From Thalassotalea hakodatensis (GTDB lineage Bacteria; Pseudomonadota; Gammaproteobacteria; Enterobacterales; Alteromonadaceae): a stretch of DNA of 64,000 bases. Made by a program: the position numbers and the translations under genes. Below the pieces are notes generated by a model. It searched no databases and was not told where the DNA came from. It saw nothing but the letters and a program-made list of their open reading frames with translations. Numbering within the stretch: position 1 is the first letter of the stretch; each line of letters opens with the position of its first letter. The stretch is from contig NZ_AP027365.1 of assembly GCF_030295995.1 (NCBI RefSeq), positions 2,636,066 through 2,700,065 of the forward strand, written 5' to 3'. Positions 3,327 through 51,014 of this stretch are shown in pieces.

Positions 3327-3327
3327 A

Positions 3328-12547: not shown

Positions 12548-12685
12548 TAGAGCGTGTTGATCTTTGCTGTTTAAGTTTTGTTCAAATTAAACGCCTTCTG
12601 ATCGCGGCACTTGGATTATTGCATAGTCATTCTATGGTTAATTCAAGTAACAAAGAGCAGGAGGTGTTTAGTTGAACCCTTCGGG

Positions 12686-13962
12686 CTGACGAATCCCCAA
12701 AAAATGACAGGCACAACATTTTATGATCTTATTAGTTCGTCAAAACAAAAATAAGAGTAAAATGCTATGCCTGAATCCTTACTTTGCCATAACTTCTTTG
12801 ATAAGTCCTTATCGAATTTCAATCAAGCGAGAATGAAGACACTTAAAGCATGCTCTGAAGCACTTATAGCGTCTGATAGATTAACCTTAACAAGTTTGGG
12901 GCGTTACTTAGCTGGGCGTGCGAACATTAAGCATAAAATAAAAAGGGTTGCTCGTTTTCTTAATAACGAGCATTTGTTTAACCAACAAGTTGAAATATAC
13001 GCTTCGTTGGCCAAGCCAATCATTAGCAACTTGCCTTGTTTAGCCATTGCAGTGGACTGGAGTGGTTGTTGCCGTTCAGATTACCACCTGCTTAGAGCGA
13101 GTTTACTCGTTGATGGTCGTTCTTTAGTGCTTTACAACATGGTTGTTGAATTAAAAGATTTTGATACGCCAGAAACCAATGCCAGATTTTTAGACAACCT
13201 CCTTCAAGTTATTGGTGAACACCGGTCCGTTTATATTTTGTCAGATGGTGGTTTTCTTACTCCTTGGTATACTAAAGTCCGTTCATTAGGATGGCACTTT
13301 ATTGGCCGTCTCAGAGGCACGATGACATGTAAGTTAGAAGGTAAAAATACTTGGGAAAAACTCCCTGCCTTTCATCAGGGAGCGAGCTGTCAACCAACTC
13401 GACTTGGCAAAGCGAGGGTTACTCAACACAGTCCAACAGCATGTGATGCATTTCTCCATTTGTACAAAGGAAAATACAAAGGACGAAAAGGGAATAGCCG
13501 TTTTACTAAAGATACTCGCATGTATCGACGGCATGCTCATGAGCCATGGTTACTCGCAACATCAGATAATACACTCACTAGTGATCAAGTAATTAAGTTG
13601 TACAGTAAAAGGATGCAAATTGAGCAAAACTTTCGCGATGACAAAAGCCAACAATATGGCTTTTCGTGGCGGTTTAGTAAAACACAAGGCGTAAGGCGAA
13701 TGAGTGCCTTGTGCTTAATTGCATGTTTAGCCAGTCTATTACTTTGGTTTGTTGGCTTTGAAGCGGAGCAGCGCAATTGGCAAATAATGTTTCAGGCTAA
13801 TACGATAAAACACCGCAGAGTTCTATCGTTTCTTACATTGGCGAAGCAAGTAATTCGGCATAGACTCCACAAAATTAAAAATCACTATCTACAGAAAAGT
13901 CGAGAAAACTTTTTAGCTTATTATCAAATATGTTCAGTTATATAAAAATGGGGATCCGTCAG
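12686..13962 (+). mobile_element. IS4-family (IS10-like) insertion sequence, copy 1
   Basis: The element is 1277 bp with ends CTGACGAATCCCCA (left) and CTGACGGATCCCCA (right, complement), closely resembling the CTGA..GATCCCC ends of IS10. It is flanked by a 9-bp duplication CCCTTCGGG at 12677-12685 and 13963-13971. Copies 2 and 3 have the same length and only scattered base differences, which indicates recent transposition. The target lies in the centre of a MITE-2 copy. Confidence 0.95.
12767..13945 (+). CDS. IS4-family (IS10-like) transposase, copy 1
   Basis: The 392-residue DDE transposase has Asp97 (AVDWSGCC), Asp160 (LSDGGF) and Glu286 within the Y-x2-R-x3-E-x6-K motif (Tyr279, Arg282, Glu286, Lys293). 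Length and motif spacing match the IS10 transposase. It differs from copies 2 and 3 at two residues: Ala62 instead of Asp in KRVARFL, where IS10 also has Asp, and Cys91 instead of Tyr. The change at 62 might impair this copy. The start lies 81 bases inside the left end. Confidence 0.95.
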   Translation: MPESLLCHNFFDKSLSNFNQARMKTLKACSEALIASDRLTLTSLGRYLAGRANIKHKIKRVARFLNNEHLFNQQVEIYASLAKPIISNLPCLAIAVDWSGCCRSDYHLLRASLLVDGRSLVLYNMVVELKDFDTPETNARFLDNLLQVIGEHRSVYILSDGGFLTPWYTKVRSLGWHFIGRLRGTMTCKLEGKNTWEKLPAFHQGASCQPTRLGKARVTQHSPTACDAFLHLYKGKYKGRKGNSRFTKDTRMYRRHAHEPWLLATSDNTLTSDQVIKLYSKRMQIEQNFRDDKSQQYGFSWRFSKTQGVRRMSALCLIACLASLLLWFVGFEAEQRNWQIMFQANTIKHRRVLSFLTLAKQVIRHRLHKIKNHYLQKSRENFLAYYQICSVI

Positions 13963-14089
13963 CCCTTCGGGCTGTATCTGTTTGGCATTTCTATTGTGTT
14001 AACGCTTGACTGGAGTAGAATAACTACACAGCGAAAGTGTTGCCTTGTATAAATACCAAACAAATTGCGGCAAAAGTAAACATGAAAGA

Positions 14090-14947
14090 TCAACACGCTC
14101 TAGTCGCGTAAAGACGGCTTTTAGCAATTATTTTATCTCTGTATTGACCAGGGGTTATGCCAATAACCTCTCTAAATTGATGATTAAAGTGTGCTTGATC
14201 ATAGAATCCTGCCAAGTACCCAATATCAGTAAGGCTCAGATCAAACAGCTGCGTTTTTAATAAATATCTCGCGTAATGATTTTGTCTAAGCCGGCTATAC
14301 TGCTTTGGCGCCAATCCCATGTGTTGTTTAAACAATCGATCAAGCTGACGTTGACCTAAACATAATTCATCATTTAAGGCAGAAATGGGTTTCAAGCCAT
14401 TATTCACATCAATCCAGTTTATCGCAAACGCTAACCGATTATCTAATTTACCTGACAATGACTTATTTTGTTTTTGTATGGTTAGAAGGTGAGAAAACAA
14501 ATGATATTCAATAGCAGTGATCCATTGCTCAACCGAAGCACTCATCATAAGCTCATTCATTAAGTGATCACATAATCTCGTTAATGAAATATCATCAGGT
14601 ACAATTGTTGTATTTTCAATCTCCGTCAACGGTAAACCAAAGAACTGATGTCCGGCTCCAGGGTGAAAACGAATACCAAATGCTTCTACTCTACCCAGCC
14701 CGGTAAAATGCACAGATTTACGGTTAGGACCAACAATAGTACAGCCTTGCTTTAACAAAAAATTGCCAATCTTGATTGGATCGGCACAATTAAAAATAAT
14801 ACCACTGCCACCTTCTGGGTGCATATATTCATCGGCAATAGCTAACTGCCCTTCCCCATATGTTACATGCCAATAGCATTGCACTAAATTTGCTAACTGA
14901 GAGGTTGGTGCAAAACGTTGAAAATGAGACCTGTTAAATGTTGTCAT
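14090..14947 (-). CDS. AraC family transcriptional regulator
   Basis: The protein (285 aa) has an N-terminal DUF6597-type sensing domain (HPEGGSGIIFNC, then FGIRFHPGAGHQFFG) and a C-terminal AraC DNA-binding domain. The two helix-turn-helix units are in ISALNDELCLGQRQLDRLF and DIGYLAGFYDQAHFNHQF, ending GITPGQYR. It is divergent from an AhpD-like gene 155 bases away, its likely target. The final residues R-A-C and the TGA stop are encoded by the terminal inverted repeat of MITE-2 copy A, so the natural C-terminus was altered by that insertion. Confidence 0.87.
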   Translation of the reverse strand: MTTFNRSHFQRFAPTSQLANLVQCYWHVTYGEGQLAIADEYMHPEGGSGIIFNCADPIKIGNFLLKQGCTIVGPNRKSVHFTGLGRVEAFGIRFHPGAGHQFFGLPLTEIENTTIVPDDISLTRLCDHLMNELMMSASVEQWITAIEYHLFSHLLTIQKQNKSLSGKLDNRLAFAINWIDVNNGLKPISALNDELCLGQRQLDRLFKQHMGLAPKQYSRLRQNHYARYLLKTQLFDLSLTDIGYLAGFYDQAHFNHQFREVIGITPGQYRDKIIAKSRLYATRAC

Positions 14948-15101
14948 AACATTAGGTGAAGTGAATTAAGTCATAGCAGTATAACAAAGATAAACATTGA
15001 CACAAATTCAACGACAAGCTGCTAAACATGTCGAAAATTTACAATCTTAATGCTCACGCATGCCTTATGATTTTCATCTTTACAACATAAAGGAAAAGGC
15101 A

Positions 15102-15575
15102 ATGCCAGTACAATTACATTATTATCAAATCGCGCCAAAAGCAATAGCCGCACAACTTGGGCTAGAGCAATATTTAACGTCAAAAGATGCCAGTCCGCAT
15201 ATTAGTAAGACAGTGATAGAGCTAATAAAAATACGTGTATCTCAACTTAATCGCTGTGCTTACTGTATTGATATGCACACTAAAGATGCACGAGCTAACG
15301 GAGAAAGTGAACAACGTATTTTTGGTTTGACTGCGTGGAAAGACTCACCGTTTTACACCGCAAAAGAGCGTGCAGCCTTAGCGTGGAGTGAAGCAATAAC
15401 AACAATAGACTCTCACGAACATTGCTCAACATTACTTGAAACGATGCGAAATAATTTTGACGATAAAACCATCGTTGATCTCTGTATTGTGGTCTGCAGT
15501 ATCAATAACTGGAATAGAATTACCTTAGCATTTGGTGCAGATGTTGGTAGTTATCAGGTTGGTCAATTTGAATAA
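15102..15575 (+). CDS. Carboxymuconolactone decarboxylase/AhpD-like protein
   Basis: This 157-residue protein has the AhpD-type redox motif RCAYCIDMHTKDA (Cys-x2-Cys-x3-His), followed by the helical pattern ALAWSEAIT and VVCSINNWNRI. Such proteins reduce peroxides or alkylhydroperoxidase partners, or act in general antioxidant roles. I chose the ATG at 15102, since AAAGGAAAAGG lies just upstream; an in-frame ATG at 15060 has no such site. It is divergent from the AraC regulator, a common pairing in which the regulator controls the enzyme. Confidence 0.83.
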   Translation: MPVQLHYYQIAPKAIAAQLGLEQYLTSKDASPHISKTVIELIKIRVSQLNRCAYCIDMHTKDARANGESEQRIFGLTAWKDSPFYTAKERAALAWSEAITTIDSHEHCSTLLETMRNNFDDKTIVDLCIVVCSINNWNRITLAFGADVGSYQVGQFE

Positions 15576-15889
15576 TGTTCTGAGAAACTCCATCTAGGGG
15601 CGCTAATACACCAACAAAAGGCCTCATGATATTATCCTTAAGAGGCAGTTTAAACAACGAGAGGTGCGGCACAACCATACGAAAGCGATTTTGTTTGGCT
15701 AAGTAACTTAAGCCCTCTCCTTTACAGTCATATATACAGCTGTCAGTAATCATTTTATGCGTTGACCTGCTAAATAACACAAAAACCATACGGCTTGTCG
15801 TCAAAGAATTAATTTCTTAGTGGGGTTTTGATATGTTATCACACTAATATTTCAGTCTCCTATTCTCCTTTTTTGCACGGTAATCTCAA
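15576..15889. other. Intergenic region between the AhpD-like and TonB receptor genes
   Basis: About 310 bases contain no convincing gene. A minus-strand open frame (15520-15804) has no recognisable domain and overlaps the end of the AhpD-like gene. The right-hand part holds the promoter region of the TonB receptor, including a candidate inverted repeat at 15830-15853. Confidence 0.5.
15830..15853 (+). promoter_or_regulatory. Candidate Zur-like inverted repeat upstream of the TonB receptor
   Basis: GATATGTTAT, identical to a Zur half-site, is followed after four bases by CTAATATTTC, which pairs at seven of ten positions. It lies about 37-60 bases before the receptor start. Zinc control would fit the His-rich plug loop of the receptor, but the match is partial and the call is tentative. 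Confidence 0.25.
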
Positions 15890-17920
15890 ATGAAAAAACA
15901 ACTCTCTGCTATTTCTATAATGGCACTTTCAACTCACGTATTAGCAGACGTTTCAGGGCTCGAACACTTTGTGGTCTTGGGTAAGCGAGCCAACTTAATT
16001 GGCGAAACCATGTCAGCTTCGGAAGGTTTGGTTGGCTATGGTGATATTGAACGGCGTCCTATTTTACGCTCAGGTGAAATATTAGAATTTGTACCCGGCA
16101 TGGTTGTTACTCAACATAGTGGTTCTGGTAAAGCCAATCAATACTTCTTACGAGGTTTTAACCTTGATCACGGTACCGATTTCAGTACCTATATTGATGG
16201 TATGCCCATTAATATGCGCACACATGGTCATGGCCAAGGTTATGCGGATTTAAATTTTATCACCCCTGAATTCATTGAAAGTATTCATTACCAAAAAGGA
16301 CCATATCAAACAGCACAAGGCGACTTTTCTACCGCAGGATCAGCATATTTCGCGTTAAAGTCTGACTTTATTAACCCATTCGTTACAGTAGAATTAGGCC
16401 AAGATAGCTACCGTCGAGGCGTTATTGGTCAAAACATCAAAACAACCGAAGGTAACCTTGCTATTGGTGCAGAATGGCAACAGTATGATGGCCCTTGGAC
16501 TGATATCGATGAAAACATAAATAAAAAGAATGTCATGCTTCGTTACCAACAAAACATACTTGATGGTACGTTAAACCTGACATTTTTAGGTTACCAAAAT
16601 AGCTGGAATGCTGCGGATCAAATCCCCACTCGAGCTGTCAAAAATCAGTTAATTGATGAGTTAGGCTCAATTGACGATACTTTAGGTGGTGAGTCTGATC
16701 GCTATAGTTTCTCAATGAATTGGCGTAACCAGCAATGGGCTCTTTCTGCATATGCTATTGAAAGCTCATTAAACCTCTATTCCAATTTTACGTATTTTCT
16801 AGACGATCAAAACAATGGCGACCAATTTGAGCAAGTTGACGATAGAAAAATATTTGGTGCTAGTGTAGTCAAACTCTTTAATCAACAACAAGGTAATACT
16901 CACATACACCATAGTGTAGGTCTTGATGTAAGATTTGATGACATTAACGAAGTCGGTCTTTACAAAACGAATGCCAGAAAAAGGTTATCCACTGTGCGAA
17001 CTGATTCCGTCGAACAATATTCCGTTAGTGGCTTTTATCAAGTCAATGCTGATATCAACGATAACTTGTCAGTTAATGCAGGCGTGCGTCATGATTACAT
17101 GAATGTAGACGTAAACAGCGACTTAACGATAAATAGTGGCGATAACAGCGACAGCATTACCAATTTCAAAGCGGGTTTGAGTTATCAATTTAACGAACAA
17201 TGGCAAACCTACGCTAACTGGGGACAATCATTTCACTCTAATGATGCTCGCGGGGCAACAATAAGTATTGACCCTGTAACGAATGAAGCGGCGGAAACCG
17301 TAGATTTACTGGTGCAAGGTCAAGGCGCAGAAGTAGGAGTAAGAGTGGCAGAATATGAAAACTACAACGCCTCTCTTTCACTTTGGTGGTTAGAGAATGA
17401 TTCTGAACTAGTGTTTGTTGGTGACGCCGGTAATACAGAAGCTAGTCGTGCTTCTAAGCGTTATGGTGCTGAATTTTCTGCGCTATATTGGCTTTCGTCA
17501 GAAATTGTCGCGGATGTTGAACTTGCATGGACAAAATCACGCTTTACCGAAGACGACGTTGGCGAAGGAAATTACATTGACGGTTCACTCCCTTTTGTTG
17601 CAAGTGTAGGTATAAGTTGGCACATCAATGACAGCTTCAACACAAGCATGCGTTTAAGACACTTTGGTAAACGTACACTTGATAGTTTCAACCACAACCA
17701 GTCAGACACATTCAGTGTTGTGAATATGAATGCGCAATACTTATTATCCGATTGGAAATTCAATGTCTCAGTATTAAATCTATTCGACAGTAATGATCAT
17801 GATATTGATTATTTATATGAAAGTCGTTTACCCGGAGAAAGCGAGACAGGCGAAGAAGATGTTCATTTTCATCCAATAGAACCACGAACAATACGCGCAA
17901 GTGTCACCTACTTATTCTAA
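15890..17920 (+). CDS. TonB-dependent outer-membrane receptor
   Basis: The 676-residue protein has a signal peptide (about 1-19, ending VLA), a plug domain (ILEFVPGMVVTQHSGSGKANQ, YFLRGFNLDHGTDFSTYIDG) and a long beta-barrel ending in an aromatic residue (SVTYLF). A His-rich loop, MRTHGHGQGYADLNFI, lies in the plug at about 104-119 and another HFHP lies near the C-terminus, which may bind metal ions. It imports a substrate across the outer membrane using TonB energy. Substrate identity is not shown; zinc is a weak possibility. No TonB/ExbB/ExbD genes are nearby. Confidence 0.9.
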   Translation: MKKQLSAISIMALSTHVLADVSGLEHFVVLGKRANLIGETMSASEGLVGYGDIERRPILRSGEILEFVPGMVVTQHSGSGKANQYFLRGFNLDHGTDFSTYIDGMPINMRTHGHGQGYADLNFITPEFIESIHYQKGPYQTAQGDFSTAGSAYFALKSDFINPFVTVELGQDSYRRGVIGQNIKTTEGNLAIGAEWQQYDGPWTDIDENINKKNVMLRYQQNILDGTLNLTFLGYQNSWNAADQIPTRAVKNQLIDELGSIDDTLGGESDRYSFSMNWRNQQWALSAYAIESSLNLYSNFTYFLDDQNNGDQFEQVDDRKIFGASVVKLFNQQQGNTHIHHSVGLDVRFDDINEVGLYKTNARKRLSTVRTDSVEQYSVSGFYQVNADINDNLSVNAGVRHDYMNVDVNSDLTINSGDNSDSITNFKAGLSYQFNEQWQTYANWGQSFHSNDARGATISIDPVTNEAAETVDLLVQGQGAEVGVRVAEYENYNASLSLWWLENDSELVFVGDAGNTEASRASKRYGAEFSALYWLSSEIVADVELAWTKSRFTEDDVGEGNYIDGSLPFVASVGISWHINDSFNTSMRLRHFGKRTLDSFNHNQSDTFSVVNMNAQYLLSDWKFNVSVLNLFDSNDHDIDYLYESRLPGESETGEEDVHFHPIEPRTIRASVTYLF

Positions 17921-17935
17921 TCACCAATACGTTAA

Positions 17936-17970
17936 GCTGAGGTAGATAACTGCCTCAGCGCAAATTTTTA
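17936..17970 (+). terminator. Intrinsic terminator after the TonB receptor gene
   Basis: GCTGAGG and CCTCAGC form a 7-bp stem with a 10-base interval, followed by GCAAATTTTT. It starts 16 bases after the receptor stop codon. Confidence 0.65.
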
Positions 17971-18118
17971 ATCAAATAAAACAAGCGCCTCTCTACAAAA
18001 GCCGGCAACGATACCTTTACATTTTTTTGCCATAATTGTTCATCACATTGCCCTTTTTCTCCCCTAAATAAGCCACTTCTTTCATGTTTAATAAAACCTA
18101 TTAAACATGGAGGATCTC

Positions 18119-20209
18119 ATGAACACGCATACCCGACTGATTATTACACTTGTCATACTCACAATAGCGCTTAGCGCCTCATTTTATCTTAATGGTAAAC
18201 ATTCCGAGAGCACGAGCCAATTTAATGTTGATCTGTCATATAAAACAGTTTCATCTAGCAAGCCACTATTACAAGTAGAACAATATGGGCAAGTACAACA
18301 AGGAAGCTTTTTTCTACAACAAGAAAACAAACAGGGGTATTTGCTTTCACCTTTATTAGATACCAAGGTAGATATTACGGTTACAGGGCTTATTGCTCGG
18401 GCTGTGGTAACGCAACAATTTACCAACTCAACAAATGATTGGGTCAACGGAATTTATGTTTTTCCATTACCCGAAAATGCTGCGGTTGATCATTTAACGA
18501 TGGACATTGGCGATCGCACAATCGTTGGAAAAATTCAGCCTAAACAAAAAGCCAGAAAATTATATCAACAAGCAAAATCTGACGGGAAAAAAGCCAGTCT
18601 ATTAGTACAAAATCGCTCAAACCTGTTTACCAATCATGTTGCAAACATAGGCCCCGGTGACACAATAAGGGTCACTATTGAATACCAACAAGCGATAACG
18701 TTTGAAAACAATATGTTTAGCTTGCGATTTCCTACTACTGTTACCCAACGCTACTTACCCGCTTCTCCTTTAAACAGCGAACAAAAATCTATTGATGAAA
18801 GTGGTTGGGGGATCACTCAGCCAACTTTCAATAACAATACTGTTGATGCACAAGAAGAAGCTGCACCGCCCATGCATAAAGTTGCCATGAACATCACTCT
18901 CAATAGCGGTTTCGAACTTAATAACATTGAAAGCGAACAACATCCTATCATCACGAATAAAGTGACATCTAGCCAATATAAAGTGCAACTAGAACAAGAT
19001 ATGATTGCAAACCAAGATTTCGTACTTCAATGGCAAGCAAAACCTACTCATCAACCAACAGCAGCGCATTTTAGCCAAACAACAGAAAATGGTCACTACG
19101 GTATGATAATGCTTATGCCGCCACAACTTACCGACAATGCTACACCGCTAAATCGAGAAGTCGTTTTCGTAATTGATACCTCTGGCTCTATGGCAGGCAC
19201 TTCAATTAAACAAGCTAAAAACGCACTTGCATGGGCTATTTCAGATCTTGCAGCCACTGATACTTTTAATGTCATAGCATTTAACAGTACCGCCAATAAA
19301 GTATTTCAACATTCCATGCCCGCCAATCGTGCATATAAAAATTCTGCCATGCAATATATTGAACAATTAAATGCAAATGGGGGCACCGAAATACTGTCGG
19401 CACTGCAACTTTCATTAGGCCACCAAAGGCCCAACCCAGCTAGAATACGGCAAGTTATTTTTATTACTGATGGCGCAGTAGGTAATGAAGCCGAATTATT
19501 TACCTATATCAACAATCATTTAAATCAAAGCCGACTTTTCACCGTAGGAATAGGTTCTGCACCTAACAGTTACTTTATGACTGAAGCAGCCTTGATGGGT
19601 AAAGGAACCTATACCTATGTAAATTCTGTAAACACGGTGCAAGCTAAAATGAAGCAACTTTTTGGCAAACTTAAACAGCCAGTATTAGCTAACCTAACCG
19701 CTAAAATGAGTCAAGATGCAGACATGTACCCTCGTCATTTACCTGATTTATATCAAGGGGAACCTGTCATGATCAGCTACTTTAGCGAGCAAACTCCAGA
19801 TAAAATGCTCATTTCAGGTGTATTACGCCAGCAAGACTGGCAGCAAACGCTTACGCTACAACACAGTGGGCAACAGTCAGGTTTATCTACCTTATGGGCT
19901 CGTCGGAAAATTGCCCAACTTTCTAGAGATAAATATAAAGGTAAAGATGCAACCATAATCAATGAACAAATTTTAGAGACTGCGATGGAACACCATTTAG
20001 TCAGTGAAATGACAAGCTTAGTCGCAATAGATATAACACCATCCGCAAAGGTACCAAGCTCAGACCGAGTCATCAAAAACCAACGACCTAAAGGCCAACA
20101 AGGTATGCTGCCACAAACAGCAACCCCCGCTTTATTACAAGCATTGATAGCCTTATTCTTTTTAGCTCTCGCCTTGGGTGTCACCTTACTGAATAACACG
20201 CGCCGATGA
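18119..20209 (+). CDS. Marine proteobacterial sortase target protein (VIT and von Willebrand A domains)
   Basis: This is a 696-residue secreted protein with an N-terminal signal or anchor (about 5-23), a VIT domain (ending near 200: GIYVFPLPENAAVDHLTM, FTNHVANIGPGDTIRVTIEY) and a vWA domain with an intact MIDAS motif, DTSGSMAGTS (near 350). The C-terminus has LPQTA, a hydrophobic span of about 20 residues and a terminal RR: a sortase sorting signal. The start at 18119 is supported by GGAGG five bases upstream. It overlaps the sortase gene by four bases, so the two form a dedicated enzyme-substrate operon. Confidence 0.93.
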   Translation: MNTHTRLIITLVILTIALSASFYLNGKHSESTSQFNVDLSYKTVSSSKPLLQVEQYGQVQQGSFFLQQENKQGYLLSPLLDTKVDITVTGLIARAVVTQQFTNSTNDWVNGIYVFPLPENAAVDHLTMDIGDRTIVGKIQPKQKARKLYQQAKSDGKKASLLVQNRSNLFTNHVANIGPGDTIRVTIEYQQAITFENNMFSLRFPTTVTQRYLPASPLNSEQKSIDESGWGITQPTFNNNTVDAQEEAAPPMHKVAMNITLNSGFELNNIESEQHPIITNKVTSSQYKVQLEQDMIANQDFVLQWQAKPTHQPTAAHFSQTTENGHYGMIMLMPPQLTDNATPLNREVVFVIDTSGSMAGTSIKQAKNALAWAISDLAATDTFNVIAFNSTANKVFQHSMPANRAYKNSAMQYIEQLNANGGTEILSALQLSLGHQRPNPARIRQVIFITDGAVGNEAELFTYINNHLNQSRLFTVGIGSAPNSYFMTEAALMGKGTYTYVNSVNTVQAKMKQLFGKLKQPVLANLTAKMSQDADMYPRHLPDLYQGEPVMISYFSEQTPDKMLISGVLRQQDWQQTLTLQHSGQQSGLSTLWARRKIAQLSRDKYKGKDATIINEQILETAMEHHLVSEMTSLVAIDITPSAKVPSSDRVIKNQRPKGQQGMLPQTATPALLQALIALFFLALALGVTLLNNTRR

Positions 20210-20802
20210 AATCACTAACCATGAACAAACACAAAGCAATAATTGTTACCTGCTGTTTCATTAGTGCTTTATTTTTTGCGTCAAGTATGTACATACACGC
20301 TAAAGCAATATTTGCACAATGGTTAATTGCAAACGCTTGGACCGCAACATTATCAACAGGTAAACAACAGCCACCGTGGTCATGGGCGGATACTTATCCA
20401 GTTGCTAAAATATCCTTGCAAAAAAAACGTTATTACTTGTTAGCAGGCGTGACAGGAAGAACGCTAGCCTTTGGCCCTGGACATATGAGTAGCACACCGC
20501 TACCAGGGGAGGTGGGTAATACTGTCATAGCCGGTCATCGTGATACCCATTTTGCACAACTTGAACACCTGACTTTTAATGATACTTTAACCGTAGAAAC
20601 ACTCAGGGGTAAGTTTACCTATCAAATCATCGATATTAGCATCGTACACGAACAAGACATGAGCGTTACCGCTGCAAGCAATAACGACACCCTGACCTTA
20701 ATCACCTGCTACCCATTTGATTCATTATCGCCTAATACTCAATGGCGTTATGTAATACAGGCAACGTTACAAAAGCAAGGTAATAACAGCGCAGATGTTT
20801 AA
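20206..20802 (+). CDS. Class GN sortase
   Basis: The 198-residue protein has an N-terminal membrane anchor (about 10-30) and a sortase fold with the catalytic His in NTVIAGHRDTHF, Cys in TLTLITCYPF and Arg in TQWRYVI. These are the elements of the Gram-negative class GN sortase, which is always paired with a vWA/VIT target. It overlaps the target gene by four bases (ATGA). It should cleave the LPQTA signal of the upstream protein and attach it to an unknown acceptor in the envelope. An alternative start is the ATG at 20221. Confidence 0.93.
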   Translation: MKSLTMNKHKAIIVTCCFISALFFASSMYIHAKAIFAQWLIANAWTATLSTGKQQPPWSWADTYPVAKISLQKKRYYLLAGVTGRTLAFGPGHMSSTPLPGEVGNTVIAGHRDTHFAQLEHLTFNDTLTVETLRGKFTYQIIDISIVHEQDMSVTAASNNDTLTLITCYPFDSLSPNTQWRYVIQATLQKQGNNSADV

Positions 20803-21251: not shown

Positions 21252-21311
21252 CTCACTGCATCATAGTAATATAACAGACCTTAGTTTCGTTAATTAAAGA
21301 CAACGTATTGA

Positions 21312-21623: not shown

Positions 21624-21668
21624 TCTTCCCTCCTACATAACCATTATTATTGTTTGTTAAGCTCAGTG

Positions 21669-21974
21669 TTATAAACTTTCTTGTTGGCAATTCCAACAAA
21701 TATCAAACGATGCGTCATTTTTTTCTGTGCAGTTATTACAGATCCAATCATCAGCATGTTTATTCTTTTGGTTCACGTTGACGAGCCCAATCGCCCGTTC
21801 ATAATCTTCATCATTGACCACCCAGAGTTCAGGCCAGCAATCTAATGGCGCTATTTCTCCCATAGCACCTTGAGCATATTCATTCTTTAGAAATACGACG
21901 ATACCTTGGGCACTAATGAGATCTTTCATTCTAGTTACAAGAAAACTATGTTCGTTGGTATAAACCCTTTTCAT
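21669..21974 (-). CDS. DUF2007-like protein with C-terminal zinc finger
   Basis: This 101-residue protein begins with a DUF2007-type (putative signal-transducing) domain: a start like MKRVYTNEHSFLVTRMKDLI, then GIVVFLKNEYAQGAMGEIAP and PELWVVNDEDYERA. It ends with a RanBP2-like zinc finger, DWICNNCTEKN...FDICWNCQQ, with four Cys and the characteristic W-x-C spacing. Neither module has a defined role in bacteria; protein-protein contact is likely. Confidence 0.78.
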   Translation of the reverse strand: MKRVYTNEHSFLVTRMKDLISAQGIVVFLKNEYAQGAMGEIAPLDCWPELWVVNDEDYERAIGLVNVNQKNKHADDWICNNCTEKNDASFDICWNCQQESL

Positions 21975-22080
21975 GATTGATAACTCTTTAAACTTTACTG
22001 TCAGCAGCCATGATGCTTTTAATACCTACTGCATTGATACATCGTATAATTCAAAGCGATATCAATAGAATTACTGGTGC

Positions 22081-22410
22081 CTACTTCGTTAATACAAAAG
22101 CTATAATGAATGCAATACAAAATGAAACAAGCGTTGCTTTTATATCCGTTTTAGCCACTTTATATTTTATTGTCGCTAAAGAAAATGGTACTACTCGCTC
22201 TTGATGTTCATTGCACATTAACAGTTCATTTAGTTGCACATCAAAAGTAGCACATAAAGATTTAACCGACTCAGGTGAGGCTACACCTGATTTTTCAATA
22301 CGCTGAATTGTTCTTAAACTAATACCACTAACCTCGGCAAGATGAGATTGGCTCCAAGCTTTTGCTTCTCTGTATTGTTTTAGTTTTACGTTATCTAATT
22401 TCATTTCCAT
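22081..22410 (-). CDS. XRE family regulator with C-terminal membrane segment
   Basis: The 109-residue protein has an N-terminal helix-turn-helix (LKQYREAKAWSQSHLAEVSG, ISLRTIQRIEKSG; residues 8-41) that matches Cro/CI-type DNA-binding domains, and a hydrophobic C-terminus (about 90-107: TLVSFCIAFIIAFVLTK) that looks like a single membrane anchor. GGAGG precedes the start. The combination suggests a membrane-tethered or membrane-responsive regulator. Direct repeats at 22469-22506 upstream may be its operator. Confidence 0.8.
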   Translation of the reverse strand: MEMKLDNVKLKQYREAKAWSQSHLAEVSGISLRTIQRIEKSGVASPESVKSLCATFDVQLNELLMCNEHQERVVPFSLATIKYKVAKTDIKATLVSFCIAFIIAFVLTK

Positions 22411-22468
22411 TACTGTTCCTCCGCGCTAAATATTGAAATAATTATCGAAGGAAAGCCTTTTATTTGAT

Positions 22469-22506
22469 ACGTCATCAATACGACATCTTAACGTCATCAT
22501 TGCGTC
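22469..22506. promoter_or_regulatory. 22-bp-spaced direct repeats upstream of the XRE gene
   Basis: ACGTCATCAATACGAC (22469-22484) and ACGTCATCATTGCGTC (22491-22506) are imperfect direct repeats 22 bases apart, two DNA turns. They lie about 60-95 bases upstream of the XRE start, as expected for cooperative binding of two dimers on one face. Binding is inferred. Confidence 0.35.
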
Positions 22507-22650
22507 GTGAATGTACAATACTCACATAATCAAGAGTAAAAATAAAAACAAGCTAGAAACATTTAGCACATCTACATATCTCTATTAATCAATCTCGTTT
22601 TTTTAACACTTTGCCGCTAGGCAAAATATTTCATGCTAACAACTTACGGG

Positions 22651-22986
22651 CTATGCCTTTTTAACAAACTTAGCAGTTATCATCATTTCACCGGCACCGT
22701 CGACCTTACAGTCTAATTGATGATCTTTAGCATCTTTAATCTGTTTAATGGTAGCTTTAGTGCCAATTTTTATCACTTGTGAACTGCCTTTAATTTTTAA
22801 ATCTTTTATTGCTGTGATTTTATCGCCTTCACTTAACAAAGTGCCATTTGCATCTTTCACTTTAATAGTGTCTTCATCTGCCTGCTCAGAAGGATTCCAT
22901 TCATAAGCACACTCTGGGCATATTAAATTGTTTTGATCTTGATATACATATTCTGAGGTACAACGAGGACAAGGAGGAAAAGACAT
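22651..22986 (-). CDS. yjdM: PhnA/YjdM family zinc-ribbon protein
   Basis: The 111-residue protein starts with a zinc ribbon ([21 protein letters not shown], four Cys) followed by the PhnA core: EWNP, then [27 protein letters not shown], typical of PhnA/YjdM proteins. Despite the old name (alkylphosphonate operon), no phosphonate genes are nearby, and the family has no firmly assigned function. It is a single gene. The MITE-1 copy B begins about 120 bases beyond its start. Confidence 0.85.
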
Positions 22987-23289
22987 AGAAAATCACACTA
23001 TTGAAAAAACAAATATTCTAATAAATTTTTCTCCGCTATGCGAATAATGATTAATGAACTTGATATACTGATAGACAGCTAAAATAGGCCTACCAGTATA
23101 CAATAATACCAATTCGCATAAATATTCGGTCATTCAGCGAGAAATAAAAGGGATAGAGGCAAGGCATTGATTGCAAAGAATGGTTATTCAGGAGAACGTG
23201 CTCTGCGTTCTCTAATAAGCTACATCCTTGTAGCGTCCTTGTTAAAATCAACAACACAGGCTATGAAGCGTTTAAACTCGCCCTTTGGG

Positions 23290-24566
23290 CTGACGAATCC
23301 CCAAAAAATGACAGGCACAACATTTTATGATCTTATTAGTTCGCCAAAACAAAAATAAGAGTAAAATGCTATGCCTGAATCCTTACTTTGCCATAACTTC
23401 TTTGATAAGTCCTTATCGAATTTCAATCAAGCGAGAATGAAGACACTTAAAGCATGCTCTGAAGCACTTATAGCGTCTGATAGATTAACCTTAACAAGTT
23501 TGGGGCGTTACTTAGCTGGGCGTGCGAACATTAAGCATAAAATAAAAAGGGTTGATCGTTTTCTTAATAACGAGCATTTGTTTAACCAACAAGTTGAAAT
23601 ATACGCTTCGTTGGCCAAACCAATCATTAGCAACTTGCCTTATTTAGCCATTGCAGTGGACTGGAGTGGTTGTTGTCGTTCAGATTACCACCTGCTTAGA
23701 GCGAGTTTACTCGTTGATGGTCGTTCTTTAGTGCTTTACAACATGGTTGTTGAATTAAAAGATTTTGATACGCCAGAAACCAATGCCAGATTTTTAGACA
23801 ACCTCCTTCAAGTTATTGGTGAACACCGGTCCGTTTATATTTTGTCAGATGGTGGTTTTCTTACTCCTTGGTATACTAAAGTCCGTTCATTAGGATGGCA
23901 CTTTATTGGCCGTCTCAGAGGCACGATGACATGTAAGTTAGAAGGTAAAAATACTTGGGAAAAACTCCCTGCCTTTCATCAGGGAGCGAGCTGTCAACCA
24001 ACTCGACTTGGCAAAGCGAGGGTTACTCAACACAGTCCAACAGCATGTGATGCATTTCTCCATTTGTACAAAGGAAAATACAAAGGACGAAAAGGGAATA
24101 GCCGTTTTACTAAAGATACTCGCATGTATCGACGGCATGCTCATGAGCCATGGTTACTCGCAACATCAGATAATACACTCACTAGTGATCAAGTAATTAA
24201 GTTGTACAGTAAAAGGATGCAAATTGAGCAAAACTTTCGCGATGACAAAAGCCAACAATATGGCTTTTCGTGGCGGTTTAGTAAAACACAAGGCGTAAGG
24301 CGAATGAGTGCCTTGTGCTTAATTGCATGTTTAGCTAGTCTATTACTTTGGTTTGTTGGCTTTGAAGCGGAGCAGCGCAATTGGCAAATAATGTTTCAGG
24401 CTAATACGATAAAACACCGCAGAGTTCTATCGTTTCTTACATTGGCGAAGCAAGTAATTCGGCATAGACTCCACAAAATTAAAAATCACTATCTACAGAA
24501 AAGTCGAGAAAACTTTTTAGCTTATTATCAAATATGTTCAGTTATATAAAAATGGGGATCCGTCAG
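23290..24566 (+). mobile_element. IS4-family (IS10-like) insertion sequence, copy 2
   Basis: This is a 1277-bp element with the same ends as copy 1, inserted in MITE-1 copy B. The 9-bp duplication CCCTTTGGG is at 23281-23289 and 24567-24575. The corresponding unduplicated CCCTTTGGG is visible in MITE-1 copy C, which proves the insertion point. Confidence 0.96.
23371..24549 (+). CDS. IS4-family (IS10-like) transposase, copy 2
   Basis: This is a 392-residue intact transposase with DDE residues Asp97, Asp160 and Glu286 and the YREK motif. The protein is identical to copy 3 and differs from copy 1 in having Asp62 and Tyr91. It starts 81 bases from the IS left end. Confidence 0.95.
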   Translation: MPESLLCHNFFDKSLSNFNQARMKTLKACSEALIASDRLTLTSLGRYLAGRANIKHKIKRVDRFLNNEHLFNQQVEIYASLAKPIISNLPYLAIAVDWSGCCRSDYHLLRASLLVDGRSLVLYNMVVELKDFDTPETNARFLDNLLQVIGEHRSVYILSDGGFLTPWYTKVRSLGWHFIGRLRGTMTCKLEGKNTWEKLPAFHQGASCQPTRLGKARVTQHSPTACDAFLHLYKGKYKGRKGNSRFTKDTRMYRRHAHEPWLLATSDNTLTSDQVIKLYSKRMQIEQNFRDDKSQQYGFSWRFSKTQGVRRMSALCLIACLASLLLWFVGFEAEQRNWQIMFQANTIKHRRVLSFLTLAKQVIRHRLHKIKNHYLQKSRENFLAYYQICSVI

Positions 24567-24762
24567 CCCTTTGGGAGCGTGTTAGAGGCGCGATAATTAC
24601 GCAAAACGTGTTTGATGTAGAACAACTATACCTGCACACGTTTCGCTTATTCTCCCACCTCTGACATCGCTCTGTACTGACTTAATCTTTATGCGAATTG
24701 GTATAAGGTGTTTTTTTAATAATTGATACACGTACCAACTTACTGATTTATTAACCAAACAT

Positions 24763-26019
24763 TTATTCTTGAAGCGTTGATAATCGTTCAATAGATTGAA
24801 CAATTTTATCAAACTGCCAATGATCAGTTTTACTTGCTAAGTTTTTCGCTTGGGCTAATGTATCTAAAGCTAACGATAAGTTATTTAATGTTTCATACAC
24901 TCGCGCCAATGCAAGGTAACTTGATACGTTTTCAGGCGTATATTGCACCAATCGCAACGCCACCGTTTCAGCTTCTTTGAATCGCTCTAATTCAATTAAA
25001 TGACTAACAATAAATGTAAGAGAATTAACACTGTTCCAACGGACAGGGTTTGGTAATACGGTAAAGCCAACATCCTCGCTTATTTTTTGATAATAATGAT
25101 CAATATTCGTTAATGCATCCCCTTTTTGAGCCACAAGTTCACGGTATTTAGGTGCCCAAAGGCTTTCAGGGTATAACGTATCAAAAGCTAATAACAAAGT
25201 TTTGATAAAAGCATCATAATGACGTTCGTTATCAAACACATGCGTAATCAACTTACCTTGCTTATTAGCTAGTTTTTGATAGTTTTCTAACACGGTTTTA
25301 TGATTATTAATATAATCAGGCTTACCTTCTAAATCATCATCCGCTACGGCAAAAAGTACCAGCCCATTAAGCTCCTTTTCTAACTGCATAGGTATTGTTT
25401 CACTAAACGGACGCTTAGTTTCTTGATTAAAGCTCATACCCAACATGTCACTCGCAGCAAGAAAAATATAGTTATCAAAAAGCGCTGGTTTACTACGTAT
25501 ACTATACAAAGGAAATAGTGATGCCCCAGACACACCGATAATCGAGCGTTTATTCATTGCACGGTAATGTTTTTCAAGGTATGGAAATAACTCTTGCTCC
25601 AACATTGCTTGATATTTCATTGCATCACCATAACCGGATATTACCTCACGCTTCGGCCACATTCCGTTGGTATAAGTATCGGGGAAGTGTCCACTATAGT
25701 TTAAGCTGACAACAATACTTTCGGGCATACGATCAACACTGGCTAAGTGCTTTACAATGCCTGTTAAGGTATGAAAAAAACGATTACCGTGCGAGCCATT
25801 GATAAAAATAATCGGGTAACGAAAATCTTCAGAGACAGTATCAAAATTTGCTGGCAGGTATATATTTAAAGGAATTTTATCCTCAATAATGTCAGACTCA
25901 AAATCTAACGTGAATCCATAAGTGAGCTGGTTTTCAGCATTATCATTGCCTTGTGCGACGGTTGCGATAAGCAAAAAACATACGCCAATTAAAGCACTGA
26001 ACGCAGATGTAAATGTCAT
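24763..26019 (-). CDS. Secreted alpha/beta hydrolase (esterase D-type) with C-terminal TPR
   Basis: The 418-residue protein has a signal peptide (about 1-24), an esterase domain resembling enterochelin esterase/Esterase_phd proteins (INGSHGNRFFHT, then SLNYSGHF; nucleophile motif GVSGAS with Ser near 170; a DNERHYDAFI region that could hold the catalytic His), and a C-terminal tetratricopeptide-like region (about 330-410, ALARVYETLNNLSLALDTLAQAKN). GAGGAAG precedes the start. It is divergent from a CadC-like regulator that may control it. Substrate is unknown. Confidence 0.8.
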   Translation of the reverse strand: MTFTSAFSALIGVCFLLIATVAQGNDNAENQLTYGFTLDFESDIIEDKIPLNIYLPANFDTVSEDFRYPIIFINGSHGNRFFHTLTGIVKHLASVDRMPESIVVSLNYSGHFPDTYTNGMWPKREVISGYGDAMKYQAMLEQELFPYLEKHYRAMNKRSIIGVSGASLFPLYSIRSKPALFDNYIFLAASDMLGMSFNQETKRPFSETIPMQLEKELNGLVLFAVADDDLEGKPDYINNHKTVLENYQKLANKQGKLITHVFDNERHYDAFIKTLLLAFDTLYPESLWAPKYRELVAQKGDALTNIDHYYQKISEDVGFTVLPNPVRWNSVNSLTFIVSHLIELERFKEAETVALRLVQYTPENVSSYLALARVYETLNNLSLALDTLAQAKNLASKTDHWQFDKIVQSIERLSTLQE

Positions 26020-26213
26020 ATTCTTCCTCGTGATTATTATGTAATTGTTATTCGAGAATAATATGACAAAACGGTATTCAAATTACCTGAAGCACTGATG
26101 ATAAAATACTGACTTTTCACTGAATATTTATAAATCAATGAGTTAAGAATTATTGAAATTCTTTAAACAAGGATATAATGTTAACTTATCATCGATAATG
26201 AGATTTACTTTCA

Positions 26214-28334
26214 ATGCCGACAAAATTTTTCATCGGTCAGTTTTACGTCGACATTCAGCGAAACTTAATCATCGTCCAACAAGAGGGTGGTATTCAAGAA
26301 GAACACATTCTTCCACCGAAAACTATTGCTGTATTACAACTTCTTGCCAAGCAGCAAGGTGAAGTATTAAAAACAGATTATATCATTGATCAAGTTTGGC
26401 CAGATACCATCGTTTCGCCCAACTCGTTACAGCGTTGCATAACGCAATTAAGAAAAGTACTTGTTATTTCGGGCGATAATCAAGCCATTATAAAAACCCA
26501 CACTAAGAAAGGCTACTGCTTAGAACTTCCTGTTAATATTGCAGAAGATCACTTTGCGTTATCGCCGAAACAAGCAACGATAAATAGCCAGAAAAATAAC
26601 AAGATAATAAGCCAAAAGTCTTTACGTATTTCAGCTTTAGCATTGTTAATAATGTTGGCTTTGGTCGCATTTATCAAAAACATTGAACAGCGAACTCCGG
26701 CCTTCTCAACCATCAAACAACTCACTCACTCAGACTATAAAGAACAATTCCCTAGTTATGCCCCAAATAGTCAATACCTTGTCTTTCATCGCTATGATGG
26801 CCGCTGTAATAACAATATATGGGCGATAGATAACGCGACAAAAGAAGAAATTCAACTCACAAAATCCACTGACTTTTACGGACCACACAGGTTTTCATCT
26901 GACGGCAAAAAGTTAATATTTTTGGCTAAAAACGCTTGCACCCAACCCCAAAAAGAAGAAAATCAAAAACAATGTTGGAAAATAATGTCTTTAGATTTTG
27001 ATGCTGCACTTTCGTCACCTCAGGCACCGATTGAGTTAGCGAATTGTCGACAAGGAAAACTTAACTACCCAACATGGTTAGATAACGGTAGCATCGCGAT
27101 ATTACGGGGTAAAAATGAAACTTGGCGTCTCGCTAAATACATGCTCAATGCAGCTAATAGCGTTGATATTTATAACCCTAAAAACAAACAACTTTATTAT
27201 TTTGATTACTTAGCAGCGCAACAACAATTCGTTGTATTATCTAAAGATAAAAGCAACCAACACTGGCGAGAAATCATTTCAATAACCGGTGATATTATTA
27301 ACAGTACACGCATATCATTGCCTCAATCTTTCAACGCTCACAACAACATTAGACCTTTCGCGTATGATGGAAAAGGATCACACTTTTTTGCAACTGGGAA
27401 AAATATATATACATTACATGACGATGGCTCGATAAACCATTTTCAACAATTACCCTTTATAAACACTCATCAGTATGCATTATCGCCAGATGGTACTACC
27501 CTTCTGGCGAGTAGAGGGCGATTAGATAATGATGTTGCACAAGTCAGCTTAACACCTACAAATACTGATACTGTTCAACCAAGTCAAATCAATCAAGTAA
27601 CAACAGATTTCCCCAGTCTTTTTCGAAGTACTGCACAAGAGCACAGCGGTAAATATCAGCCTTTGGGTGAGCAAATTGCGTTTGTTTCTGATCGGTCAGG
27701 TCAAGCACAGATTTGGCTTGGTCAAAAAAATCGCGTTAAACAGCTCACTTTCTTTCCTATCGACAGTCAATTAAGCAATTTTCAATGGCACCCTGAGGGT
27801 GTTCAATTAATCGTTGCCAATAATCGTCAACTTTGGCTGATAGATTTAGATGGCACAGCAAGCAAATTAAACTACCCGCATTCGGTTACCAAAGTGTATC
27901 AATGGATAACTGATGACGAAGTATTAGTTTCCTCATTTAACAATGATAAAAACCATGTATCTTTATTATCATTAAACTCAGGTAAGCTTACAAATTTGTT
28001 CTCAGAACCGGTTCGCTGGGCTCAATACACACTAAACGGCAACTTGATTTTATTGGATGACAATAACAAATTTTGGCAAAAAGATGACCACGTTAAAAAA
28101 CAGTTAACAACGCTCAAAAACCAATCAGCTCGGAAAGAGTTTTTACTTGAAAAGCAAAATATTTATTCAGTAAATAAGCACGGTCATCTCTGGCGTTATC
28201 GTTTAGATAACTATGAATTCAGCGTGATTAATCAAAAAGCTAGCTACCTTTCCGCCTTAACAGACATAAAAAATTATCAAATTTTAGCCACACAAGTTGT
28301 TACCGACAAAAAAGATATTGTCGAAATTTATTAG
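26214..28334 (+). CDS. CadC/ToxR-like winged-helix transmembrane regulator with beta-propeller
   Basis: The 706-residue protein has an N-terminal OmpR-type winged helix (LPPKTIAVLQLLAKQQG, DQVWPDTIVSPNSLQRCITQLRK; about 5-100), one membrane helix (about 141-160, ALALLIMLALVAFI) and a periplasmic TolB/WD40-like propeller with SPDGT- and SDGKK-type repeats. This is the CadC layout, sensing outside and binding DNA inside. It is divergent from an esterase gene, a likely target. The TAG stop (28332-28334) is the first three bases of MITE-2 copy B, so the C-terminus was probably truncated by the insertion. Confidence 0.87.
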   Translation: MPTKFFIGQFYVDIQRNLIIVQQEGGIQEEHILPPKTIAVLQLLAKQQGEVLKTDYIIDQVWPDTIVSPNSLQRCITQLRKVLVISGDNQAIIKTHTKKGYCLELPVNIAEDHFALSPKQATINSQKNNKIISQKSLRISALALLIMLALVAFIKNIEQRTPAFSTIKQLTHSDYKEQFPSYAPNSQYLVFHRYDGRCNNNIWAIDNATKEEIQLTKSTDFYGPHRFSSDGKKLIFLAKNACTQPQKEENQKQCWKIMSLDFDAALSSPQAPIELANCRQGKLNYPTWLDNGSIAILRGKNETWRLAKYMLNAANSVDIYNPKNKQLYYFDYLAAQQQFVVLSKDKSNQHWREIISITGDIINSTRISLPQSFNAHNNIRPFAYDGKGSHFFATGKNIYTLHDDGSINHFQQLPFINTHQYALSPDGTTLLASRGRLDNDVAQVSLTPTNTDTVQPSQINQVTTDFPSLFRSTAQEHSGKYQPLGEQIAFVSDRSGQAQIWLGQKNRVKQLTFFPIDSQLSNFQWHPEGVQLIVANNRQLWLIDLDGTASKLNYPHSVTKVYQWITDDEVLVSSFNNDKNHVSLLSLNSGKLTNLFSEPVRWAQYTLNGNLILLDDNNKFWQKDDHVKKQLTTLKNQSARKEFLLEKQNIYSVNKHGHLWRYRLDNYEFSVINQKASYLSALTDIKNYQILATQVVTDKKDIVEIY

Positions 28335-28469
28335 AGTCTGTTAATCTTTCCAGATTAAATGTTGTTCGAACTAAACGCTTTTTGTTCAAGGCGTGAGCAA
28401 TGTCGCATGGTTATGCCATGTCAATTGCGAACAACGATGAAGAAATAGCGTTTAATTGAACCCAAAGGG

Positions 28470-29746
28470 CTGACGAATCCCCAAAAAATGACAAGCACAA
28501 CATTTTATGATCTTATTAGTTCGCCAAAACAAAAATAAGAGTAAAATGCTATGCCTGAATCCTTACTTTGCCATAACTTCTTTGATAAGTCCTTATCGAA
28601 TTTCAATCAAGCGAGAATGAAGACACTTAAAGCATGCTCTGAAGCACTTATAGCGTCTGATAGATTAACCTTAACAAGTTTGGGGCGTTACTTAGCTGGA
28701 CGTGCGAACATTAAGCATAAAATAAAAAGGGTTGATCGTTTTCTTAATAACGAGCATTTGTTTAACCAACAAGTTGAAATATACGCTTCGTTGGCCAAAC
28801 CAATCATTAGCAACTTGCCTTATTTAGCCATTGCAGTGGACTGGAGTGGTTGTTGTCGTTCAGATTACCACCTGCTTAGAGCGAGTTTACTCGTTGACGG
28901 CCGTTCTTTAGTGCTTTACAACATGGTTGTTGAATTAAAAGATTTTGATACGCCAGAAACCAATGCCAGATTTTTAGACAACCTCCTTCAAGTTATTGGT
29001 GAACACCGGTCCGTTTATATTTTGTCAGATGGTGGTTTTCTTACTCCTTGGTATACTAAAGTCCGTTCATTAGGATGGCACTTTATTGGCCGTCTCAGAG
29101 GCACGATGACATGTAAGTTAGAAGGTAAAAATACTTGGGAAAAACTCCCTGCCTTTCATCAGGGAGCGAGCTGTCAACCAACTCGACTTGGCAAAGCGAG
29201 GGTTACTCAACACAGTCCAACAGCATGTGATGCATTTCTCCATTTGTACAAAGGAAAATACAAAGGACGAAAAGGGAATAGCCGTTTTACTAAAGATACT
29301 CGCATGTATCGACGGCATGCTCATGAGCCATGGTTACTCGCAACATCAGATAATACACTCACTAGTGATCAAGTAATTAAGTTGTACAGTAAAAGGATGC
29401 AAATTGAGCAAAACTTTCGCGATGACAAAAGCCAACAATATGGCTTTTCGTGGCGGTTTAGTAAAACACAAGGCGTAAGGCGAATGAGTGCCTTGTGCTT
29501 AATTGCATGTTTAGCCAGTCTATTACTTTGGTTTGTTGGCTTTGAAGCGGAGCAGCGCAATTGGCAAATAATGTTTCAGGCTAATACGATAAAACACCGC
29601 AGAGTTCTATCGTTTCTTACATTGGCGAAGCAAGTAATTCGGCATAGACTCCACAAAATTAAAAATCACTATCTACAGAAAAGTCGAGAAAACTTTTTAG
29701 CTTATTATCAAATATGTTCAGTTATATAAAAATGGGGATCCGTCAG
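28470..29746 (+). mobile_element. IS4-family (IS10-like) insertion sequence, copy 3
   Basis: This is a 1277-bp element with 9-bp duplication CCCAAAGGG at 28461-28469 and 29747-29755, inserted in MITE-2 copy B. It is in the same orientation as copies 1 and 2. Confidence 0.96.
28551..29729 (+). CDS. IS4-family (IS10-like) transposase, copy 3
   Basis: This is a 392-residue intact transposase with Asp97, Asp160, Glu286 and the YREK motif. It is identical in protein sequence to copy 2 despite a few silent base differences (for example GTTGACGGCCGT against GTTGATGGTCGT). Confidence 0.95.
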   Translation: MPESLLCHNFFDKSLSNFNQARMKTLKACSEALIASDRLTLTSLGRYLAGRANIKHKIKRVDRFLNNEHLFNQQVEIYASLAKPIISNLPYLAIAVDWSGCCRSDYHLLRASLLVDGRSLVLYNMVVELKDFDTPETNARFLDNLLQVIGEHRSVYILSDGGFLTPWYTKVRSLGWHFIGRLRGTMTCKLEGKNTWEKLPAFHQGASCQPTRLGKARVTQHSPTACDAFLHLYKGKYKGRKGNSRFTKDTRMYRRHAHEPWLLATSDNTLTSDQVIKLYSKRMQIEQNFRDDKSQQYGFSWRFSKTQGVRRMSALCLIACLASLLLWFVGFEAEQRNWQIMFQANTIKHRRVLSFLTLAKQVIRHRLHKIKNHYLQKSRENFLAYYQICSVI

Positions 29747-29907
29747 CCCAAAGGGCAGCGTTTTTTGTCATTTATACGTCGTTATTGCTTTTTCATGTGG
29801 AATAACCACACATTAATCGCAATGCCTTGTCTAAATCCCCATAAACTGCTGTAAAAATAAACGCGAAAGATCAACAGACCCTAACCAGTATTGTGATTTT
29901 CACTTAT

Positions 29908-51007: not shown

Positions 51008-51014
51008 TTTACAA

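Follow-up and report, generated by a model that had tools for sequence, protein, structure and literature searches.

Why should every copy of a transposable element in one stretch of a bacterial chromosome lie in the middle of another repeat? This question is raised by 64,000 nucleotides of Thalassotalea hakodatensis (contig NZ_AP027365.1 of assembly GCF_030295995.1, positions 2,636,066 to 2,700,065; this whole stretch is called the window), in which three copies of an insertion sequence (IS) split miniature inverted-repeat transposable elements (MITEs). Here we argue that the transposase of this IS, a member of the IS10 subgroup in its broad sense, probably reads a dyad-symmetric duplex target, CCC-NNN-GGG, and that this motif sits mainly at MITE centers. 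We prefer this reading to one in which hairpins are recognized.

An IS4-family element at the centers of MITEs

The window copies are each 1277 bp long, lie on the plus strand and were delimited by reading their ends and transposase open reading frames (ORFs): copy 1 at 12686-13962 (ORF 12767-13945), copy 2 at 23290-24566 (ORF 23371-24549) and copy 3 at 28470-29746 (ORF 28551-29729). The flanks of each hold a 9-bp target-site duplication (TSD), namely CCCTTCGGG around copy 1 (12677-12685 and 13963-13971), CCCTTTGGG around copy 2 (23281-23289 and 24567-24575) and CCCAAAGGG around copy 3 (28461-28469 and 29747-29755). Repeat alignment and flank matches placed copy 1 in MITE-2a (12550-14100; 265 bp without the IS, target at 128-136, that is, after 127 bp), copy 2 in MITE-1 (23107-24703) and copy 3 in MITE-2b (28333-29882; about 264 bp without the IS, with a central target), whose right end was set by eye from its inverted ends and which entered one comparison script as 268 bp. 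All three hosts are thus broken at the MITE center, and the original prediction of three copies with perfect 9-bp duplications inside MITEs was confirmed.

The ends CTGACGAATCCCC and GGGGATCCGTCAG are the same in all three copies, and the element encodes a single protein of 392 amino acids. This transposase matches Pfam DDE_Tnp_1 (E 5e-16) and the NCBIfam IS4-family model NF033591 (291 bits against a cut-off of 152), and carries a YREK motif, YSKRMQIEQNFRDDK, at residue 279. A sequence search of the PDB with it gave no hits at E 0.1, and a scan of viral contigs gave four candidate stretches and no relative. As described for the IS4 family (PMC2266710), the element has a one-ORF DDE transposase with Y(2)R(3)E(6)K and a duplication of about one helix turn, here 9 bp and identical on both sides in 16 of 18 genome copies. 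According to PMC2266710, members of the IS10 subgroup are 1200-1350 bp long with 5'-CT ends and a 9-bp duplication; the window IS agrees in length (1277 bp), end (CTGACGAATCCCC) and duplication (9 bp). It is not IS10 proper, as a protein tree places it apart from the IS10 group and its target is CCC-NNN-GGG, not NGCTNAGCN.

Target sites of the 18 genome copies

The whole 4,275,310-bp genome holds 18 copies of the IS, all of 1277 bp and differing pairwise at no more than 10 of 1277 bases. CCCNNNGGG flanks both sides of 17 of them, with the central triplets TTT/AAA, TTC/GAA or TAA, and flank matches assign the same 17 copies to MITE-1 (8), MITE-2a (5) and MITE-2b (4). Both IS orientations were found in MITE-1 and in MITE-2b. 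The claim that this IS10 relative has a palindromic target of its own therefore held, with CCC-NNN-GGG at 17 of 18 copies and at all three homologues of 65-69% identity. As in ISs that target repetitive extragenic palindromic (REP) sequences, 17 of 18 copies occupy one fixed position within a repeat, here MITE-1 or MITE-2; these hosts are MITE-sized, not REPs of 20-40 bp. In two copies (L005 and L016; G, C and L numbers are our handles for genomes, contigs and loci) the two sides carry different versions of CCCNNNGGG, suggesting that a base changed or that IS copies recombined. L016 has a MITE-2b-like left flank and a MITE-2a-like right flank, and is counted among the five MITE-2a hosts; such mixed flanks are expected if two IS copies have recombined.

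L018, the 18th copy, is flanked on either side by CCCGAAGGT, one letter off the CCC-NNN-GGG motif. Its site lies at a hairpin tip: on the minus strand the hairpin reads CCAACC-TTCG-GGTTGG and then TTTT. This hairpin is located in a spacer of a tandem tRNA-Arg array and by eye looks like a terminator. An uninterrupted second copy of this hairpin precedes the nearest called tRNA-Arg, and the array spacers repeat it. The tRNA-Arg-like DNA beside the site was not called as tRNA; next to the IS, the array (positions 1400-1500 and 2781-3614 of the L018 piece) holds degenerate tRNA-Arg-like copies.

Anatomy of the host MITEs

An empty MITE-1 of 312 bp, recognized by sequence match, lies at 33678-33989 of the window, with an unoccupied CCCTTTGGG at 33853-33861. 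A truncated, inverted MITE-1 remnant at 12364-12547 (minus strand) was found in the repeat list and by a match to the left flank of L010. The window MITE-1 has 48 additional bases in its left arm. Homologues in G001, G011 and G029 are 261-264 bp long with CCCNNNGGG after 127 bp, and those in G003 and G006 are 262 bp long with CCCTTGGG after 127 bp. Other MITE-1 relatives have the centers TAT (G002), TAC (G027) and AAC (G004), with CCC and GGG constant; this last reading covers sites selected by a simple filter on the left flank, and the G003, G006 and G010 pieces (L160, L164, L165) contributed none. MITE-1 and MITE-2 had been taken for two unrelated families, and their aligned identity is indeed only 42-48%. 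Nonetheless, their shared layout, length of about 264 bp and central palindrome suggest common descent, and make the claim doubtful.

Longer MITE-1 matches are 82-100% identical to the query, a wider spread than among the IS copies with their 10 differences at most. MITE-1 matches occurred in 14 of 59 genomes, this one included, and MITE-1 (window 33678-33989; L137, L140, L142, L143, L144, L148) is common to several genera of the family. In three genomes of the same genus MITE-1 was present with no IS match at E≤1e-60; the MITE is therefore more widespread than the IS.

Seven MITE-1 sequences (five genomes and the window) share one three-arm fold in which 95.2% of cells are paired. Of its 92 pairs, 39 changed on both sides, compared with 19.1 in shuffles and 4-7 when the structure was slid along; the structure was derived from the alignment, and the alignment itself was not fitted to the structure. 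Selection seems to hold the MITE-1 fold. Rfam gave no match above the gathering score in window 12300-34100. The target is placed between the two inner arms, which as drawn take in its first C and final two Gs, so that a small CCC/GGG hairpin would compete with the arms. Because CCC and GGG never vary in the seven sequences, there is no covariation evidence for such a hairpin. Beyond the 18-bp ends, the left half resembles the inverted right half weakly in each of nine elements (z 1.7-3.1).

Motif supply and the MITE association

MITE-matched bases sum to 21,108 of 4,275,310, or 0.49% of the genome (overlaps counted twice, short matches omitted). The expectation that copies would lie in MITE-1 or MITE-2 far above the random rate was borne out, as at random positions the probability of finding at least 17 of 18 copies there is about 1e-38, which rules out random insertion. 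This comparison is misleading, since most sites with a used motif are inside MITEs, and it overstates the effect of the MITE. Among the distinct CCCTTYGGG sites listed, 66 of 85 are in MITEs, and so are all 16 that are occupied (hypergeometric P 0.011). This census covers 100 of 105 genome places and used 41 of 82, 29 of 49 and 29 of 50 listed MITE matches, the others being terminal-repeat echoes, mostly pieces shorter than 120 bp, and places that another list already contained.

A second comparison used every CCCNNNGGG in the first 1.73 Mb, for which the 100 places listed of 244 in the genome are complete. After collapsing duplications, 96 distinct sites were obtained; 24 are in MITEs (4 occupied) and 72 outside (0 occupied), as judged from 16, 17 and 15 MITE matches. 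Used centers occur at 14 of the 72 non-MITE sites. Nine of these are on stop-free stretches of at least 90 codons (eight of at least 240), four are in two tandem arrays and one is, by eye, a MITE-1 fragment; for the 12 CCCTTYGGG sites among the 14, the corresponding numbers are seven on stretches of at least 90 codons and six of at least 240. The arrays (L116 and L117, G000 C1:1142862-1144410 and 1344040-1345816) consist of CCCNNNGGG followed by GAAGTACAGGATGTACGGA-like sequence, are outside stop-free stretches of 90 codons and carry the IS in none of the listed sites.

The association with MITEs is thus mostly explained by the 9-mer, and the remainder could reflect loss of genic insertions or an extra structural preference. 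Among CCCTTYGGG sites the preference for MITEs is mild, and site supply together with genic loss could be enough to produce it.

Targets of related elements

Homologues at E≤1e-60 were found in 9 of 118 relatives, 31 of 394 genomes of the order and 4 of 369 genomes of the class, with the own genome counted each time. GTDB contigs gave 10 homologue loci, and plasmid and phage collections were also searched (the best 60 of 2883 plasmid records; six plasmid and two phage-collection regions were read). Among 88 loci examined, no ends were found in 14 (L029, L031-L035, L043, L049, L094, L103-L105, L134, L135; the last two are ISSfl9-type and IS10 loci), and L038 and L066 were omitted because they duplicate L027 and L028.

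The three homologues at 65-69% identity have CCCNNNGGG on both sides. The 69% element (G011, metagenome-assembled genome contig WFQC01000001) lies at CCCTTCGGG with both flanks matching MITE-1. On a second G011 contig (C119), MITE-1-like sequence is followed by CCCTTCGGG and an IS end that differs from that of the 69% element at one of 32 bases compared, and a third (C163) stops exactly at the target site; both contigs are compatible with further IS copies there. The 65% element of Colwellia sp. E2M01 (L028) has unequal sides, CCCAAAGGG and CCCTTTGGG, and no MITE match in its flanks, the left of which is only 28 bp long. The 65% element of Pseudoalteromonas sp. HL-AS1 lies beside or inside S8 peptidase genes with CCCCAAGGG at either end, and the 320 bp on each side gave no MITE-1/2 match. 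The idea of the MITE as a necessary landing place fails on this element and on L018, which is in a terminator-like hairpin. Within the own genome L018 is the only copy outside MITE-1/2 and off the motif; of the three 65-69% homologues, one is outside a MITE.

Relatives at 39-54% identity are mostly at the dyad centers of other palindromes, namely REP-like repeats and terminator-like hairpins. By eye, two sites in G051 and four in G094/G393 are CGC-rich 10-mers inside REP-like hairpins, elements in G383 and on a Klebsiella michiganensis plasmid are at the tips of terminator-like hairpins, and those of G433 (four copies) and an Enterobacter cloacae plasmid are in CTCT[CCCNNNGGG]AGAG hairpins. 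In G433, three of four copies have the CTCT[CCCNNNGGG]AGAG flanks, although in L095 the inner triplets on the two sides are unequal, and copy L070 is at CCTTTGGGG; the extended pattern CTCCCNNNGGGAG occurs at 66 of 1068 CCCNNNGGG sites in that genome (P 9e-4).

We ranked 74 loci according to how closely each matches the window protein, placing L041 and L071 by hand in the distant group, and took means over sites with no more than two duplication mismatches. The 18 rows with more were set apart; among them L095, L131 (duplication 12 bp by eye, poorly scored by the script) and L068 support the reading, and L048, L077 and L079-L081 show nothing. At 16 sites of relatives with 39-69% identity, the outer TSD triplets pair at 2.81 of 3 positions on average; outside the TSD, 4.44 of 8 positions pair, compared with 2.06 at random places (at least five in nine sites, at most three in five). 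The window element, at 17 of its 18 sites (L016 apart), has 2.94 of 3 outer TSD pairs and 2.88 of 8 beyond, and 23 distant sites have 1.22 of 3 and 3.09 of 8. A palindromic core is therefore common to most of the group, and an extended hairpin is found mainly in the REP-like and terminator-like cases; it is not seen around the 9-mer of the window element.

In a midpoint-rooted tree of 55 rows, the window IS and the relatives described above form a group of 23 that is split from a group of 32 holding IS10 (100/100), although a long-branch warning leaves the deepest joins unsure. The tree used one of the 18 own copies and omitted L048, L077 and L086 (weak ends) and L050 and L080 (frames under 330 amino acids). 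On the 32-row side IS10 is joined by two sets, one whose targets are of the TAA[CGCCNNNNT] type and one whose targets are of the GGTCAGA type.

Two further groups of IS10-subgroup elements were observed. Those at L041, L071, L042, L098 and L099 (G081, G124, G089, G384) duplicate a CGCCNNNNT-type 9-mer directly after TAA, with three G384 copies within 10 kb. By eye only, their empty sites resemble integron attC, with TAACGCC...TAAGG and TTGTTA/G about 100-120 bp on; 5 of 12 that were folded look clear. Those at L044, L051, L087, L088, L090, L106 and L107 (G055, G061, G144, G253, G616) lie in GGGGTCAGA / TCTGACCCC repeats.

How the target may be chosen

In the sequence of events that we propose, the transposase of a cut-and-paste IS would recognize CCC-NNN-GGG within the 9 bp that are duplicated, with a staggered 9-bp strand transfer by a symmetric transpososome, by analogy with IS10 and Tn5. 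Because the motif with a TTT or TTC center occurs mainly at the dyad center of abundant foldback MITEs of about 264 bp, most copies would settle there, and genic insertions at this motif probably occur seldom or do not persist. The clade as a whole would mostly use palindromic targets with G/C-rich outer triplets, which would lead it to the G/C palindromes that hosts keep between genes: MITE centers, REP-like hairpins and terminator-like hairpins. That MITEs act as a safe landing place, as originally proposed, would be a plausible consequence.

Several observations weigh against this reading. Nineteen of the 85 CCCTTYGGG sites are outside MITEs, yet none of the 16 occupied sites is among them, and therefore something beyond the 9-mer, either selection or structure, contributes. 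L018 deviates by one letter from the motif and has a strong hairpin. The pairing around the relatives' sites extends past the duplication, which a pure 9-bp duplex model does not need, and L047 (G051) has only one of three outer TSD pairs. In addition, sites that lie in the same repeat family of a single genome cannot count as fully independent.

A rival reading is targeting by structure, in which extruded hairpins or cruciforms attract the transposase, or a host factor, and the cut falls on the dyad axis, so that CCC-NNN-GGG would be the tip or three-way junction of a folded MITE and relatives would use REP-like and terminator-like hairpins likewise. The seven MITE-1 sequences do carry CCCNN(N)GGG between their inner arms, at the exact center in the 261-264-bp forms, and the three-arm fold with its 39 covarying pairs, the L018 hairpin, the extended flanks in G433, the terminator-like tips in G383 and the K. 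michiganensis plasmid, and the excess of pairs beyond the TSD in the relatives all agree with it. On the other hand, the window element's own sites pair little just outside the 9-mer, five of the 16 relatives' sites have at most three outer pairs, including those of the closest homologues L027 and L128 (2 of 8 each), and the close subclade keeps a sequence fixed, not structure alone; insertions would also survive in intergenic hairpins. We consider targeting by structure unlikely. A broader version is likewise doubtful: the whole clade would find its targets through dyad symmetry or hairpin extrusion and cut on the axis of inverted repeats of every size, be they 20-bp terminators, REPs or 264-bp three-arm MITEs, and sister groups would have specialized on other folding DNA such as integron attC. 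If this were true, safe insertion would be a built-in property of the target-capture step.

Chance placement was ruled out by the 18 genome copies. Alternatively, the IS could have inserted into a MITE on one or a few occasions and then been multiplied by transposition of the MITE, as might be thought from the many hosts that belong to one family and from the single IS orientation in MITE-2a (5 of 5). This is very improbable given three MITE types, the two orientations in MITE-1 and MITE-2b, different central triplets (TTT, TTC, TAA) on both sides of copies, one copy outside MITEs with its own duplication, and the 69% IS that is also in MITE-1 in another genus; spread as a passenger of MITEs was rejected on the differing orientations and triplets. 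Least probable of all is that specificity is as loose as that of IS10 and only MITE insertions survive. The long stop-free stretches under 9 of the 14 non-MITE used-center sites in the first 1.73 Mb fit such selection, but MITE-matched DNA is only about 0.5% of the genome, which intergenic DNA must exceed, and all copies but one have the motif; loose IS10-like specificity was rejected on that count. Recognition of the CCC-NNN-GGG duplex, with MITE centers as its main supply, thus remains the reading that we regard as probable.

Other features of the window

A tRNA cluster with tandem copies lies at 51013-52226, where ARAGORN calls one Met, two Leu and two Gln tRNAs. The tRNA-Leu-like 5' halves at 51013, 51107 and 51657 were not called and look like degenerate tRNA copies; a spacing of about 163 bp recurs.

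Comparison with known systems

The IS itself is real and target-specific; what is new here is the dyad-axis habit of an IS10-subgroup clade together with the anatomy of its host MITEs. Target choice diverges within one well-studied transposase subgroup, with the principle of an intergenic G/C palindrome largely kept, and the homologues form a tractable set with which to map target reading by an IS10-type transposase. The MITEs are documented with a landing site at the dyad center and a covarying three-arm fold that has no Rfam match in the stretch searched. That insertions seldom harm genes may be a consequence of what the transposase recognizes.

The original prediction knew of no insertion into repeats for this group. 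That statement is tenable at most for the IS10 subgroup; according to Tobes and Pareja 2006 (PMC1525189) and PMC2266710, all ten copies of ISRm22, an IS4-family element of subgroup IS4Sa, are inside palindromic REPs in S. meliloti. In the titles and opening lines of abstracts that we covered, with few subscription journals, no IS10-subgroup insertion into MITEs or terminators was found, and a target figure in PMC2266710 might show CCC/GGG. ISRm22 is like the window IS in its family and its palindromic repeat hosts; it differs in subgroup and in a conserved target of almost the whole REP, compared with a 9-bp core in MITEs of about 264 bp. IS1397, ISPa11, ISPpu9/10 and other REP-targeting ISs also insert in intergenic palindromic repeats (PMC1525189). 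Unlike the window IS, these belong to the IS3 and IS110 families.

The target of IS231A is GGG-N5-CCC. IS231A and its kin use one fixed place in an end of class II transposons, Tn4430 among them (PMC1626470); they differ from the window IS in subgroup, in duplications of 10-12 bp (PMC2266710) and in using transposon ends, not MITE centers. IS1272 targets inverted-repeat structures and replaces the inverted repeat with no duplication (PMC5678879), whereas the window IS and its relatives keep duplications of 9-10 bp. A further comparison is with IS10/Tn10, which shares a related transposase (34.9% identity), a 9-bp duplication and a symmetric target. It prefers NGCTNAGCN or NPuCNNNGPyN (PMC4574204) in place of CCC-NNN-GGG, and lies in the opposite half of the tree.

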